From: a virus
Reading direction: 5' to 3' (one strand)
Length of the DNA stretch: 57,088 nucleotides
IMG/VR virus record: IMGVR_UViG_3300022200_000050
Coordinates: 1-57,088 of that record
Shown: positions 13,573-29,516 of the stretch, piece after piece
How positions within the stretch are numbered: position 1 is the stretch's first letter
Layout: each line of letters opens with the position of its first letter
Translations under genes and position numbers: made by a program
Notes under the pieces: generated by a model
The model's database searches: none
What the model saw: only the letters and a program-made list of their open reading frames with translations
Told to the model about the DNA's origin: nothing

Positions 13573-13577
13573 AAAGA

Positions 13578-13613
13578 TTTAATTAGGAATTGATTTTAGA
13601 ATACCTATATTTG
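13578..13613 (+). promoter_or_regulatory. Upstream-box promoter of a putative small RNA
   Basis: TTTAATTAGGAAT (13578-13590), exactly 15 bases, then TATATTTG (13606-13613). There is no start codon in a useful position downstream before the terminator at 13672, so the product is probably an RNA of about 90 bases. Confidence 0.65.
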
Positions 13614-13703
13614 CTCTTGTGTTGAAGGAGTAGTTCTCATAATCTATTCCTGATAATTTGTTTTGTAATATAATCCCTCGATTTACTTCGAGGGATTTAT
13701 TTT
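13614..13703 (+). ncRNA. Putative small RNA with two hairpins
   Basis: This stretch lies between a promoter (13606-13613) and an intrinsic terminator, and has no convincing reading frame. Hairpin 1 pairs GGAGTAG (13627-13633) with CTATTCC (13644-13650), one G-T. Hairpin 2 is the terminator, AATCCCTCGA (13672-13681) with TCGAGGGATT (13688-13697), followed by TATTTT. TCTATTCC in the 3' arm of hairpin 1 is an exact complement of GGAATAGA (13756-13763) in the next leader, so it could act on that transcript. Expression is inferred only. Confidence 0.55.
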
Positions 13704-13707
13704 AAAA

Positions 13708-13743
13708 ATAAATTTGGATTCTAAAATAATTGTTTTATATTTG
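13708..13743 (+). promoter_or_regulatory. Promoter of the leader and DNA-binding protein gene
   Basis: TATATTTG (13736-13743) preceded after 15 bases by ATAAATTTGGATT (13708-13720), which matches 9 of 13 positions of the TTTAATTAGGAAT box. It lies just after the small-RNA terminator. Confidence 0.55.
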
Positions 13744-13845
13744 TAGAACAATTAGGGAATAGAGTCTTAATTTTAATTGAATTTTTTTTGTATATTTATA
13801 TTTAAAAAAAAAGCTCCGAGACTCTATTTCTTGGGGCTTTTTTTT
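13744..13845 (+). promoter_or_regulatory. Attenuator-like leader with alternative pairing
   Basis: A terminator hairpin (AAGCTCCGAG 13811-13820 with CTTGGGGCTT 13830-13839, then eight T) ends exactly at the ATG at 13846. Earlier in the leader, AATAGAGTCT (13758-13767) is the exact complement of AGACTCTATT (13819-13828), which covers the top of the terminator stem and its loop. Pairing of the two would compete with terminator formation, as in attenuators. What signal would decide the outcome cannot be read. No short leader peptide stands out. Confidence 0.55.
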
Positions 13846-14740
13846 ATGCAAAAAACTAAACTTAAAATACCAGTACAACTTATAGCTGAATTAAATTACA
13901 GCCCAAGTATGAAAACATATTTCAAGTTAAAGCTACACAATAAAAGTGGTCATTATAAGCATATTTCTACTAAGTACAAGCAAATAGCCATAGACTTAAA
14001 GATAAGCGAAAGCAGCCTACGCAAACACGTTAATTTACTACAAGAAAACGGTTTTGTAAGATTAGAAAAAAATAAATTAGTATTAGTATCTATTTGGCGT
14101 AACCCAATAATAAATAAAGATAGAAAACATACTGCTGCTCATTACCAACAAATAACCAAAGTTAAAATAGACCCTACTCAATTAAAGCTAGAAATGGCTA
14201 AAATAAAGTTATTAACACAATTAAAAAGACAAAAATATAAAGCTAAAAAATCAGCAAAGAAAATATTTAAAAAAGATTCAGTAAAGAATAAAGCTAAAGA
14301 ATTAGTTAGCGAACTAGCCCAAAACGGAGAATTTAAAAACATAAGAGAGAGAATCTACGCAGACGATAGTATAATCAATAAAGAACAAGAAATTGATAAT
14401 ATTATAGGTGGAATCAAATTAGTAAGCATAGCAGTAGCTGCTTACAAACAATCGCATGAGGGAAAAGCAATAGCAAAATCACAAAGTATCAGTCAAACAA
14501 GAATAGCAGAACTATTAGGAGTTAAATCAACTAATACTGTTAGAAAAAAGACTTAAATTACTAGAATCAAACGGAGTACTTTCTAAAGAGAGAGATGCAG
14601 TAAGAATGGTTAAATATAAAAAGTTCAACCCAAACAAGCATTTCTACGATAAATTTGGCAACCTCTATAATAAAGAGTGTTTCAGATACTCAGTCAACCT
14701 CAAACCTCTAAAGAAAGAAGCTGTTATATTTATGTTATAA
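13846..14740 (+). CDS. DNA-binding winged-helix protein interrupted by a +1-type frameshift
   Basis: The first frame (13846-14556, 236 aa) starts MQKTKLKIPVQLIAELNYSP and has a helix-turn-helix (YKQIAIDLKISESSLRKHVNLLQENGFVRLE). It is followed by a Lys-rich region and the start of a second DNA-binding domain (SQSISQTRIAELLGVKSTNTV) that stops at 14556. The other frame continues at once with KRLKLLESNGVLSKERDAVRM and runs to TAA at 14740. The break is in a run of six A (14544-14549); with five A the protein would be one chain of about 297 aa. This may be a real mutation, phase variation, recoding or a read error. The translation from 13777 is rejected because it runs through the terminator. 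The gene may be a replication or regulatory protein. Confidence 0.7.
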
Positions 14741-15459: not shown

Positions 15460-16248
15460 ATGAACTTTGATGAATTAGATTTTATTGTAAATCAAACTCC
15501 AGTTGAAATGGAGTTTGATTTTAATGGTGAAACTTGGAAAAGATTTCCTTTAAATAATAATTATATAGTAAGTAAAAATGGTAATATTGTAAGAATAAAA
15601 GTAAAAGAAATTAACATAAATAGTATTGAAAGAATTTTACCAGCTAAAAAAATTAAAGGCAGTATTTTTGATACTGGTTATTTAAACACATCTATAAAAA
15701 TAGGGAATATTAAAAGAAATTTAACTTATCATCAAATTATAGCAATAACATATTTAGGTCATATTCCAAATAAATTTAAAATAGTTGTTGACCATATTGA
15801 TAACAATAAGCTAAATAATAAATTATCAAATTTGCAGTTAATATCTAACAGAGAAAACTCAAGCAAAGACAGAATTAATAACACAAGTAATTATACTGGT
15901 GTTACAATGGTTTGTAATAAAAATATAAAAAAATGGACTTCTCGAATTAAAAATGGAACTAAAAAACAAATATATTTAGGTACGTTTATTGACGAAAAAG
16001 AAGCTGGTCTTGCCTATAAAAAGGCTCTTAAATATATTCAAGAAGGGAAAGTTGAAGATATAGTTGCAAATCCGTATGTAGTTTCTTCTACTTACAAAGG
16101 AGTTCATAAAAGAAAAAATGGAAAATTTCAAGCTCAAATAGTTAAAAACAAAAAATATATGTTTTTAGGAACTTTTGAAAATGAAATAGATGCCCATTAC
16201 GCTTATCAATCAAAATACAATGAATTGAAGGGAATTTTAAACCATTAA
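15460..16248 (+). CDS. HNH homing endonuclease with NUMOD4-like and two AP2 domains
   Basis: A 262-aa protein. WKRFPLNNNYIVSKNGNIVR (about 25-44) is NUMOD4-like. VVDHIDNNKLNNKLSNLQLI (about 102-121) carries the HNH core with D-H and two N residues. SNYTGVTMV...WTSRI...IYLGTFIDEKEAGLAYKKA and STYKGVHKR...FQAQIV...MFLGTFENEIDAHYAY are two AP2 DNA-binding domains. Such genes are free-standing selfish elements that cut DNA and spread by repair. It sits between an early gene and the internal-virion operon, is very A+T rich, and shows no sign of being inside an intron. Confidence 0.9.
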   Translation: MNFDELDFIVNQTPVEMEFDFNGETWKRFPLNNNYIVSKNGNIVRIKVKEININSIERILPAKKIKGSIFDTGYLNTSIKIGNIKRNLTYHQIIAITYLGHIPNKFKIVVDHIDNNKLNNKLSNLQLISNRENSSKDRINNTSNYTGVTMVCNKNIKKWTSRIKNGTKKQIYLGTFIDEKEAGLAYKKALKYIQEGKVEDIVANPYVVSSTYKGVHKRKNGKFQAQIVKNKKYMFLGTFENEIDAHYAYQSKYNELKGILNH

Positions 16249-25367: not shown

Positions 25368-28300
25368 ATGCCTTGTAATATAACTTTCACTCCTATTGGC
25401 GCAACAGAACCTATAACACTAACAGAAGCAGAATGGATAACATTTTTAGCAACACCTGATGAAAACGGCAAGACAGAATACGACAAGCTAACCGAAAAAC
25501 TAGCAGGAACAGATAACGCATTACCTCCAATAACCCCACCAAAAGCACCTAAAAAAGAAGCTGCCCCAAGTGAGGGAGGGAAGAAGCTAATGAGAGGTGT
25601 AACAAAACAATTCCTAAAAGAAAACCCTAGCTTAGCGGAAATACTTTCGGAAGATGCTATTTATTACGACCAAATGCCAAACAAACTTTCAGAGGCAGAA
25701 GCTAGAAAAATAATTGAAGTAACACCTATTGACTATTTAGAAAAAGGAATAAGAGATTTAAACAACGGAATGAACGGTGCTGTAAGAAATATTATTGCTC
25801 AACTAATAATTAAAGAATATGATAGACTAGGCAGAAGCCAAGACGCAATAGCCTTGAGAGAATGGTTAGCATTTGCTAGTACAGATTTCGGACAGTTTAA
25901 CCAAGCAAATTGGAAACTACCTACACTAAGCCCCGCAACAGAAGTATTTGCTGTAAGCCAAGCAATAAAAAAGATTAACCAAGAACGTGCTGAAAAAGAT
26001 GGCAAACCTAAAAAGATTGCCAAAGAATTTAAAAAAGCCAATAAGGAAGCGGCAAAAGAAGCAGTAGAAAAAGTACAAGGCAAAATAAACAAGATTACCC
26101 AATCCCCTAATAGAAAATCACCAACATACGGGTCTAAAAATAAATTAGTAACAAAAGAAAATTATGATAAGTTATTAAAAGACTTAAATAAAATGACTTT
26201 TGCTGCTGCGCTACCTGTTCAATTGATTCCAATAGGAGTTTACCATATAGAAGCAGGGACAAGAAATTTTATAGCATTTAGCGAAGCAATAATAGAAGCA
26301 GTAGGAGAAAAGGTAAAACCATTCTTAACCGACCTTTATAACGCAGCTATTGATAAAGTAGATACAGAAATTAATGAAGCAAGAGGCAAGAAATGGAAAG
26401 ACAAATTAGAAGCAGCATTAGCAAGAGCAGATAGAAAAGGAATCGAAAAAGCAATAGCTAACCTACAAAACATAGCAAAAGAAGATGGCTTATGGGGTAA
26501 ATATAGGGATATGGCTGCAAAAAGGTTAAAGAACATTAGCCTAGAACAAACAAGTACAGATATAAGAGAAAATGCTGCCTTAGAAGATTTTACTAATGGA
26601 TTAGTAAGAAATATGCAAGCAAAGATTATAGAGTCATTACCAGAAAGCGAAAGAATAAGTAAACCATTAAGAAGTTCAATTGAAGTTATTGGCGATGCTT
26701 ATAAAAACTTAGATAAATATGCAGACGTTTGGGAGAAAACTAAAGCAGAGTTTCAGGAGAAATACAAAGACAACGAACAAGCGTTAGAAGCTATTGATGC
26801 TTACTTTGGAGATATATTAGCAACGCCATTTAGTCAAAAAGAAATTACAAAAGCTGTAATAAAAGGGCTTAAAGACGAAGGCGAAACTATTGCAAAAGTA
26901 GCTCAACAGCATTATACTATTTACGATGCAACAAAAAGAAGCCTAATAGAAAAGTTAACAGAAGAAGCTGGCTTAACAGAAGAGCAAGCAAAAGAACTAG
27001 GAGACGCTATAAGCAAAGAATTTGATAGATTGGCTTTAGAGAAAAAACAACAAATACTAGCAACTATTTTTAGCAAAAAAGAACGTGGCAAAAATCAAAT
27101 AAAAAACCTAGAATCGGAGTTAATAAGACTAACTAACTTAGGCGCATTTAGCGATGATGCTTTAGTAAGTGCTTATGCAGAGAAAATGGGCTGGGCAACA
27201 TTAACTCCAGAAAACATTAAAGAAATTGAACGACTAGCAAACATAGTAGAAAGAACTGCCGATGGGTTAAAAAAAGCAAGTGCTATTGAGGATTTATTAG
27301 GATACCAAGCTAAACTTAAAGGAGTATCACTTATTGACGTAATGTTCTCTGTGTGGTATGCAAATTTACTAAGTGGGTATAATACACAAATAGTAAATGC
27401 CGCTTCGGGATTATATAATACTTTTGCGGTATTTGGTATAGCAACATTAAGAAGACCTAAATCAGTACCATTCCTTGTAAATGGTTGGCTGAATGGAATA
27501 AAACAAGGTATGCTTGAAGCTAAAAGCACATTAGTAACTGGATACAGCCCACTAAGAGGGAGAGTAGAAGTACCTTCAACATTAGAATTATATCCATTTA
27601 AAGGTGGGAGTATTAACCCTGCTAATTATTTGAAGTACGTAAGAAGAATAATGGCTGCTACCGATGTTTTTATTGCAGGTGGACTTAAAGAAATGAGAGC
27701 CTACCAATGGGCAAGAATGATGGCGGTAAATGATGGCAAGTTAGAACCTAGCGTAAATACAAGGCAGCGAGCTTTAGAATATTTAAGAAAAGACGATAAT
27801 TCAATAAATGAAACTAAACACCTAGCAGCACTTGAACTACAAAAAGAAATAGAGGAAATAAATAATGAGCCTATTAGCCAAAAAGAAAAAGATGCCAAAA
27901 TAAATAAGGCTAAAAACGATGAAGGAAGACGTGTATTTGAATTAATTGAAATGGGTAGAGGCTCTGAAATAATAGAAGAAAGTGCTAACTTTGCAGCAAG
28001 GTCAACTTTTAATTACAAAACAGAAGGGCTTTTAGGTGGGTTAGTAACAAGTATCAATAATTTCATAGAAAAAAATAATAAAACAAAACTATTGAAATTT
28101 GTAGTTCCTTTTACAACAATTGTAGCAAACGTAGCAAATGAAGCACTAAACTATACACCTGTTGGATATATAAGAGGAATGGGTAACGGCTCTATTTCAA
28201 ATATGCCTAGAAAGGATTTTGAAGATATGTCAGAAACAAGACAAGCAGAATTTAAGGCAGAACTTAAAACAAAAGCATTAATAGGGCTTGCGCTAACAAC

Positions 28301-29516
28301 GGCAGTGGCAATGCTAACAACACTTAAAGGAGATGATGACGATGAGCCTATACTACAAATTACTGCAAACGGAACAGGAGACTATCAAAAAAATGAATTA
28401 TTAAAGAAAGACGAAGGATGGCAACCATATTCACTTAGAGTATGGAATCCTATAACTAAAAAATATGGAGCATGGGTTTCTTATAGATATACCCCTTTAA
28501 TAGTAATGTTTTCTGCCATTGGTAATTTAAAGGATTACGAAGCATATAGGAGAGAAAAGCTAACTGATTCGCAATGGACAAAACTTGGCGTGGCAATGAC
28601 AGCTACTTCACGAGTATTTTTTGACGCAACTTTCTTGGCTTCTATTAATACGTTTTTAGGAACTTTATTTAGTGGCGCAGCAGCTTCGGAAGATAACGCA
28701 ACTAACTTATATAAATCAGCAGTAAAAACAACTAAATCAGTAGTTGTCCCCGCATTATACACCCAAGCTGCTAAGGAAGTAGAAGCAGCGTTTGATATTC
28801 CCGTAAAACAAACGAAACTAAACCCGCTAGGAATGATAGTTGAAGATATTCCTTACTTGAGAAACTACTTTGAGAATAAAATAGACGCACTAGGCAAAGA
28901 AGTAGTCCCTGATACCGATATATTAGTTTCTGCGGGAGAAGGCAATAAAATAGTTAAGCTATTGGCAGAAAAGAAATCATTAATAAAACCGCCCGACATA
29001 AGAAAAGAAGTTTACTTTGATACTGCCGAACAAAAGGATAAAGTAATGAACGGCAAACAATTTAAAATATACTCAGAAACTAGAGGTGCGGAAATATCTA
29101 AATTCCTAGAGGATAATTACGATGAACTAAAGAAAATGGACTTAGAAGATGCTCAAAAAGCTATTAGCAATGGAGTTTCAGAAGCAACAGTTATAGCTAA
29201 AGCTAAGGTTTCGTTTAGCGAAAATGACTTTAAGCAGTTTTTTGGAGAAAAAGAAAAAGAAAGTTTGGCTCAAAAAGAAAAGAAAGCAAAAGATACCGAA
29301 GACCAAATTGCCTTTGACGAGAAGCATGAAGTAACTGCCGAAGAAAAAGCGTTCAGAGAAAGAACTAAAGGGAAATCTTTTGACGACTTAAAATTCAAAG
29401 TTTACCTACCTACTTTAAAGAAATCAACCGACCCGTCAACCGACATAAAGAGATACAAAGAATTGAAGTGGATAACAGACGTTCAGCAAAAAGAACTAGA
29501 GAACGAACTGAAATAA
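25368..29516 (+). CDS. Giant internal virion protein (polyvalent type), 1382 aa
   Basis: A 1382-aa protein starting MPCNITFTPIGATEPITLTE. After a basic Pro-rich linker, residues about 90-660 are mostly charged helices. About 665-960 contains VWYANLLSGYNTQIVNAASG, YVRRIMAATDVFIAGGLKEM and KFVVPFTTIVANVANEALNY. The last resembles a PF-x-TP-x-N-I-x-K-E-like region of large polyvalent phage proteins. Hydrophobic helices follow (GLALTTAVAMLTTL, VMFSAIGNL). The C-terminus is charged. I infer an ejected, membrane-interacting virion protein; no catalytic motif was seen. Confidence 0.62.
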   Translation: MPCNITFTPIGATEPITLTEAEWITFLATPDENGKTEYDKLTEKLAGTDNALPPITPPKAPKKEAAPSEGGKKLMRGVTKQFLKENPSLAEILSEDAIYYDQMPNKLSEAEARKIIEVTPIDYLEKGIRDLNNGMNGAVRNIIAQLIIKEYDRLGRSQDAIALREWLAFASTDFGQFNQANWKLPTLSPATEVFAVSQAIKKINQERAEKDGKPKKIAKEFKKANKEAAKEAVEKVQGKINKITQSPNRKSPTYGSKNKLVTKENYDKLLKDLNKMTFAAALPVQLIPIGVYHIEAGTRNFIAFSEAIIEAVGEKVKPFLTDLYNAAIDKVDTEINEARGKKWKDKLEAALARADRKGIEKAIANLQNIAKEDGLWGKYRDMAAKRLKNISLEQTSTDIRENAALEDFTNGLVRNMQAKIIESLPESERISKPLRSSIEVIGDAYKNLDKYADVWEKTKAEFQEKYKDNEQALEAIDAYFGDILATPFSQKEITKAVIKGLKDEGETIAKVAQQHYTIYDATKRSLIEKLTEEAGLTEEQAKELGDAISKEFDRLALEKKQQILATIFSKKERGKNQIKNLESELIRLTNLGAFSDDALVSAYAEKMGWATLTPENIKEIERLANIVERTADGLKKASAIEDLLGYQAKLKGVSLIDVMFSVWYANLLSGYNTQIVNAASGLYNTFAVFGIATLRRPKSVPFLVNGWLNGIKQGMLEAKSTLVTGYSPLRGRVEVPSTLELYPFKGGSINPANYLKYVRRIMAATDVFIAGGLKEMRAYQWARMMAVNDGKLEPSVNTRQRALEYLRKDDNSINETKHLAALELQKEIEEINNEPISQKEKDAKINKAKNDEGRRVFELIEMGRGSEIIEESANFAARSTFNYKTEGLLGGLVTSINNFIEKNNKTKLLKFVVPFTTIVANVANEALNYTPVGYIRGMGNGSISNMPRKDFEDMSETRQAEFKAELKTKALIGLALTTAVAMLTTLKGDDDDEPILQITANGTGDYQKNELLKKDEGWQPYSLRVWNPITKKYGAWVSYRYTPLIVMFSAIGNLKDYEAYRREKLTDSQWTKLGVAMTATSRVFFDATFLASINTFLGTLFSGAAASEDNATNLYKSAVKTTKSVVVPALYTQAAKEVEAAFDIPVKQTKLNPLGMIVEDIPYLRNYFENKIDALGKEVVPDTDILVSAGEGNKIVKLLAEKKSLIKPPDIRKEVYFDTAEQKDKVMNGKQFKIYSETRGAEISKFLEDNYDELKKMDLEDAQKAISNGVSEATVIAKAKVSFSENDFKQFFGEKEKESLAQKEKKAKDTEDQIAFDEKHEVTAEEKAFRERTKGKSFDDLKFKVYLPTLKKSTDPSTDIKRYKELKWITDVQQKELENELK

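Follow-up and report, generated by a model that had tools for sequence, protein, structure and literature searches.

The window, the whole stretch of DNA analysed here, is a virus record of 57,088 bases whose sequence at the leader locus is identical to that of a 77.9-kb record. A direct DNA search of phage records gave no match. We assign the window phage to the flavophages because its phosphoesterase gene finds matches in Cellulophaga phages and its promoters have the Bacteroidota form. At the locus, two predicted transcripts, RNA1 and RNA2, precede a protein gene, and the second contains a 5′ loop segment (K) and its complement in the terminator loop (K′). The features are as follows:

13573–13613, plus strand: RNA1 promoter, with the phage-wide upstream element AAAGATTTAATTAGGAA and the −7 box TATATTTG (13606–13613)
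13618–13703, plus strand: RNA1, candidate small RNA with a hairpin, a U-rich linker, and a terminator; start predicted from the −7 box position
13672–13697, plus strand: RNA1 intrinsic terminator, 10 pairs, with a covarying stem
13713–13743, plus strand: RNA2 promoter, TTTG (13713–13716), a 19-base spacer, and TATATTTG (13736–13743)
13748–13845, plus strand: RNA2, a leader of ~98 nt with complementary hairpin loops; start predicted
13749–13779, plus strand: 5′ hairpin CAAUUAGGG/UUUUAAUUG (13749–13757 with 13771–13779), whose 13-nt loop holds K
13758–13767, plus strand: K, AATAGAGTCT, in the 5′ hairpin loop, exact complement of K′
13805–13845, plus strand: RNA2 intrinsic terminator, 17 pairs (13805–13821/13829–13845), loop 13822–13828, ending at the ATG at 13846
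13819–13828, plus strand: K′, AGACTCTATT, the entire terminator loop plus three closing pairs
13846–14556, plus strand: gene for a winged-helix-like protein of 236 aa with weak HTH matches

The original prediction had placed two promoters with related boxes at 13606 and 13736; both boxes prove to be the same sequence, which fits the Bacteroidota sigma-A box TAnnTTTG (PMC9723704). Since this −7 box lies at −12 to −5 (PMC9723704), the predicted starts of RNA1 and RNA2 fall near 13618 and 13748. The RNA1 promoter motif also stands ahead of several protein genes in three related phages. In the window, this promoter family, TTAAAAAGATTTAATTAG-N19-20-TAnnTTTG, occurs at 13573, 10479, 22243, and 30210, is common to RNA1 and several protein genes, and recurs in the phages A (L013/G001) and B (L026/G002) described below.

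No homologs of the 236-aa gene were found in the other phages or plasmids searched, beyond the same phage. Its stop is at 14556, and the +1 frame past a six-A run near 14543 runs on as an HTH-like stretch to 14740. A frameshift, an assembly error, and decay are the candidates for 14540–14740, where the 77.9-kb record is identical and hence gives no independent check. Further along the window, a gene for an HNH + AP2 homing-type endonuclease (15460–16248) abuts its upstream gene and has no leader of its own, and a 1382-aa protein (25368–29516) has a DarB-like antirestriction match (phrog_10089, E 1.3e-9).

Phages A and B share with the window the upstream gene, RNA1, and the position of RNA2. 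The mean column identity of RNA1 across the three is 90%, compensatory pairs occur in both its hairpin (13626–13633/13644–13651, with the invariant loop UUCUCAUAAU) and its terminator, and its fold has a z of −4.4. Because it is 90% conserved, with compensatory changes, in three phages, the small RNA with a terminator that had been proposed upstream of the leader is probably real as a conserved structured RNA and a separate element. A covariance model of RNA1 matched only in the three phages, searches of other phages and cellular genomes turned up no further copy, and the leader class described below is found without RNA1 too. A target search in the three phages gave no target gene conserved across all of them; the invariant loop UAGUUCUCAUAAU (window 13626–13651) is antisense to AUUAUGAGAACUA, a start codon context, again with no conserved target found.

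RNA1 had also been proposed to pair through TCTATTCC (13643–13650) with GGAATAGA (13756–13763) in the antiterminator segment, driving RNA2 to terminate. The 8-base exact complement exists in the window, but at chance level, since it arises in 20–35% of shuffles. Neither A nor B contains the 8-mer, in all three phages the interaction energy does not surpass that of shuffled RNA, and TCTATTCC is buried as the 3′ arm of RNA1's own hairpin. We therefore regard such crosstalk as highly improbable.

The other complement fared differently. K and K′ match exactly as reverse complements, with one copy of each in the 57 kb, and folding of the region gave a 5′ hairpin with K in its loop and a 17-pair terminator with K′ in its loop. 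A 10-base inverted repeat arises in the shuffled leader with a probability of 0.03, and one landing on the terminator loop with a probability of 0.0016; the match is real and selected. With wobbles included, the K:K′ helix grows to 17 contiguous pairs (13752–13768 with 13818–13834). The two G-U pairs of the RNA2 terminator would become mismatches in the opposite-strand RNA. The proposed disruption of the terminator needs one correction: K′ is the whole loop plus three closing pairs and not a stem arm.

In A and B the letters of RNA2 are completely different, and each leader again carries, close to its 5′ end, an exact complement of the terminator loop. At the shared locus, K/K′ is AATAGAGTCT/AGACTCTATT in the window leader (W; 10 bases), GTGAGAG/CTCTCAC in A (7 bases), and GCGTGCGGC/GCCGCACGC in B (9 bases). 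Given each loop, the shuffled-leader p is 0.0016 for W, 0.021 for A, and 0.0009 for B (Fisher 5e-6), and the comparison with related phages for compensatory changes, proposed as a check in the original prediction, finds the complementarity kept. The RNA2 at the syntenic site in B (B1) has no intact gene behind it; it would act alone or be a remnant, as may be the case for some other copies.

We searched 4.6 Mb of redundant sequence on both strands with a thermodynamic finder that combines the promoter, K, and a terminator loop K′, with direct, reversed, and complemented K as controls. The finder was used instead of an earlier terminator-loop scan, whose stricter stem rule missed hairpins with internal loops. 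Under a strict filter (hairpin energy of at most −12 kcal/mol, with an ORF beginning no more than 45 bases away), 12 distinct leaders were found versus 0, 1, and 0 in the direct, reversed, and complemented controls, respectively; at −12 kcal/mol before the ORF filter, the counts were 14 versus 1, 4, and 3. FCL-2 contributes one further leader beyond the 12. The genes behind the leaders are as follows:

A, L164, elemo: endonuclease-VII-like (phrog_1035)/HNH
B, second copy (B2): HNH
A, second copy: HNH-AP2
FCV-1: HNH
L016: GIY-YIG
Window: winged-helix-like
P12002L: replication protein
elemo: 75-aa gene
L027 and Nekkels_1 (portal gene, K in a stem): less certain, may be chance matches

Seven of the 12 leaders lie ahead of HNH, endonuclease-VII-like, or GIY-YIG endonuclease genes, a share that is biased upwards because the loci were fetched as relatives or via homology to the genes behind leaders and form a non-random set. 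The L164/L165 leader precedes a homolog of A's endonuclease gene. Upstream of the Flavobacterium elemo HNH gene, a gap of ~100 bases consists of TATATTTG, CCGCCAAG, a terminator with CTTGGCGG in its loop, a T-tract, and the ATG. The class has a common anatomy: a sigma-A-type promoter, a 5′ hairpin with a 7–10 base loop K, an optional second hairpin, and a terminator with loop K′, which ends 0–30 bases upstream of the start codon. The 5′ hairpin around K has a combined p of 3e-5 and is individually significant in part of the set only. In the Tannerella contigs (276 kb, both strands), no leader was found, but this control is of limited size and comes from another order, and it cannot show that hosts lack the leader. 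On the minus strand of the window, at ~22890–22780, a promoter, a K (CCATTTA), and a hairpin with K′ in its loop occur with no clear gene behind. In L216, L217 (~1250–1285), and L218 (~1375–1420), endonuclease-VII-type genes start at or just behind a terminator-like hairpin that has no K partner; terminators ahead of such phage genes may be common.

Homologous leaders show compensatory change within the loops, as in GTGAGAG/CTCTCAC of A versus GTAAGAG/CTCTTAC of L164 and CCGCCAAG/CTTGGCGG of elemo versus CCTCCAAG/CTTGGAGG of L016. The leaders of FCV-1 (L222:1880–1980) and FCL-2 (L246:37475–37590) have the 5′ stem TGTAG/CTACA in common and unrelated K loops (GTAGTGC and CATCCAC), each matched by its own terminator loop. 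An attenuator-like leader ahead of the ATG at 13846, as first suggested, is thus one instance of an anatomy that stands before other flavophage genes, with K/K′ completely changed yet complementary. These changes also bear on a DNA-level explanation, in which K and K′ would serve as inverted sites for an operator function or for endonuclease binding, in the manner of I-TevI autorepression, which acts at an operator (PMC2988022). Inverted repeats suit protein sites, and many of the genes behind encode DNA-binding proteins or endonucleases. However, K′ is always in a terminator loop, K follows the −7 box, the sites are wholly changed between leaders while their complementarity is kept, and the genes behind come from several unrelated families, which makes sites of this kind very unlikely.

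We consider it rather likely that RNA2 is the leader of an RNA-only attenuator class in phages of Flavobacteriia, in which K:K′ would compete with the terminator. Every functional step in this scheme is read from the sequence. On the nascent RNA, K would pair with K′ before the 3′ arm of the terminator emerges, either as a loop–loop kiss or as a full antiterminator helix, and the outcome of the competition with the terminator would set the read-through of RNA polymerase into the gene. The hairpin beside the AUG may limit translation as well. With such a leader, the expression of genes such as those for mobile endonucleases would stay low or come late, and they would be shielded from transcription arriving from upstream.

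In W, the forced K:K′ helix has −21.3 kcal/mol versus −22.8 kcal/mol for the terminator, a cost of only 1.5; the corresponding values are −29.1 versus −27.3 kcal/mol in B1 and −17.1 versus −27.2 kcal/mol in A. In prefix folding of W, the probability of K:K′ is near 1 until the terminator 3′ arm is made and 0.03 at full length. It reaches 0.7–1.0 ahead of the complete terminator in 10 of the 13 leaders tested and is at most 0.26 at full length in all tested leaders except B1. Because the K:K′ helix is a predicted intermediate in those 10 leaders, we lean towards antitermination over a kissing contact that holds the terminator; either way, the leader would be an RNA-only attenuator. In L164, FCV-1, and Nekkels_1, the nested K:K′ helix is never favoured, and these leaders would therefore need a loop–loop contact, which is beyond the folding program's model.

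The kiss might instead lock the off state: with K:K′ fixing the 5′ hairpin on the terminator hairpin, termination would be stabilised and the start codon hidden, and breaking the kiss would turn the gene on. Natural kissing complexes are typically 7–9 nt long, and the loops here are fully complementary over 7–9 nt. In L164, B2, and FCV-1, the predicted fold contains the two hairpins together, each of them stable, which suggests a kissing contact holding the terminator, and the start codons lie 9–29 nt past the T-tract. In W and B1, however, the K:K′ helix reaches into the terminator stem or takes its place, which argues for antitermination, and we judge the lock rather unlikely overall.

The preferred attenuator reading can be set beside known systems. 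The promoter, leader, intrinsic terminator, and gene run in one direction, and an upstream segment could pair exclusively with terminator sequences, with the nested helix unfavoured in L164, FCV-1, and Nekkels_1. The pT181-type and, broadly, T-box-like attenuators likewise combine a promoter and a leader with a terminator ahead of the start codon, and a segment further upstream can pair with the terminator region, but here the partner is the terminator loop, itself matched by another hairpin loop, and the sequence is hypervariable. In a check for a pT181-type countertranscript, the closest minus-strand promoter-like match lay ~400 bp downstream of the leader, inside the gene. No conserved ligand-binding core was found in the class, and Rfam 15 gave no match at the gathering score. 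Leader-peptide attenuation was rejected, as there is no conserved short ORF: W has no ATG, A has ATG TGA, and B1 has four codons only. ColE1 RNAI/RNAII and R1 CopA/CopT are plasmid kissing-loop control RNAs that likewise have fully complementary loops of 7–9 bases differing between relatives, but here a single strand of one transcript carries both loops, the terminator loop being one of the pair. In P4/P1-type immunity RNA (CI RNA, c4) and the prophage RNA IsrK (PMC4825925), a phage RNA is complementary to its own transcript and coupled to termination, as here; unlike these, the leader has no processed antisense RNA with two flanking targets and is not in an immunity region. Since two flanking target sites are required and the window has only one K and one K′, this type was set aside. 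In the T4-type homing endonuclease genes I-TevI, segB, and mobE, early transcripts carry a hairpin that masks the ribosome binding site, and a late promoter escapes it (PMC2988022). The present proposal shares with them a 5′ RNA structure that restricts the expression of a mobile phage endonuclease, but the structure here lies behind a promoter of its own and is a terminator whose loop has a partner. A hairpin hiding a Shine-Dalgarno sequence does not apply, as there is none between the terminator and the ATG; the Bacteroidota phylum naturally lacks such sequences (PMC6847099). We found no description of this leader layout in the literature searched, which is not proof of its absence.

In the elemo phages, an HNH insert occupies one site in 5 records, and the other 55 have the flanks only, among the matches listed. 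Compared with the empty site L224, the insert (L213:1219–2040) begins just upstream of the −7 box, covers the leader, and ends after the HNH gene; by this comparison, the −7 box came in together with the leader and the HNH gene as a single unit. FCL-2 lacks the unit carried by FCV-1. Joint insertion of the leader and the gene speaks against RNA2 as a stand-alone small RNA whose self-complementary loops would serve dimerisation or pairing in trans, gene adjacency being incidental. Such a role would suit the orphan copy B1, as well as the fact that RNA2 has its own promoter and terminator, with RNA1 as a candidate small RNA alongside. However, a gene starts right behind the T-tract, 9–29 nt past it, in all 12 strict leaders; the ORF start is a criterion of that filter, and before it was applied, one was present in 12 of the 14 energy-filtered matches versus 1 of 8 in the controls. 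We consider a stand-alone role quite unlikely. The leader half of the original prediction is, as judged from these sequences, right and more general than stated, and the half on small-RNA crosstalk is not supported.

Most of what is known about the low expression of free-standing homing endonucleases that have entered a new phage comes from T4-like phages, where it relies on ribosome-site hairpins and late promoters. On insertion, the unit described here seems to supply a promoter box together with a terminator whose loop has a matching partner, and it does so in a phylum where Shine-Dalgarno sequences are not used. The leader is carried by isolated phages, Flavobacterium elemo, FCV-1, FCL-2, and Polaribacter P12002L, and is thus directly testable. 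It is plausible, at a still tentative level, that it represents an RNA-only switch widespread among Bacteroidota phages, with the loop of a 5′ hairpin kissing the terminator loop on the nascent transcript. The loops would diversify freely yet stay self-matched, so that neighbouring copies would not cross-react, and the switch would be a built-in expression limiter carried by mobile endonuclease genes.
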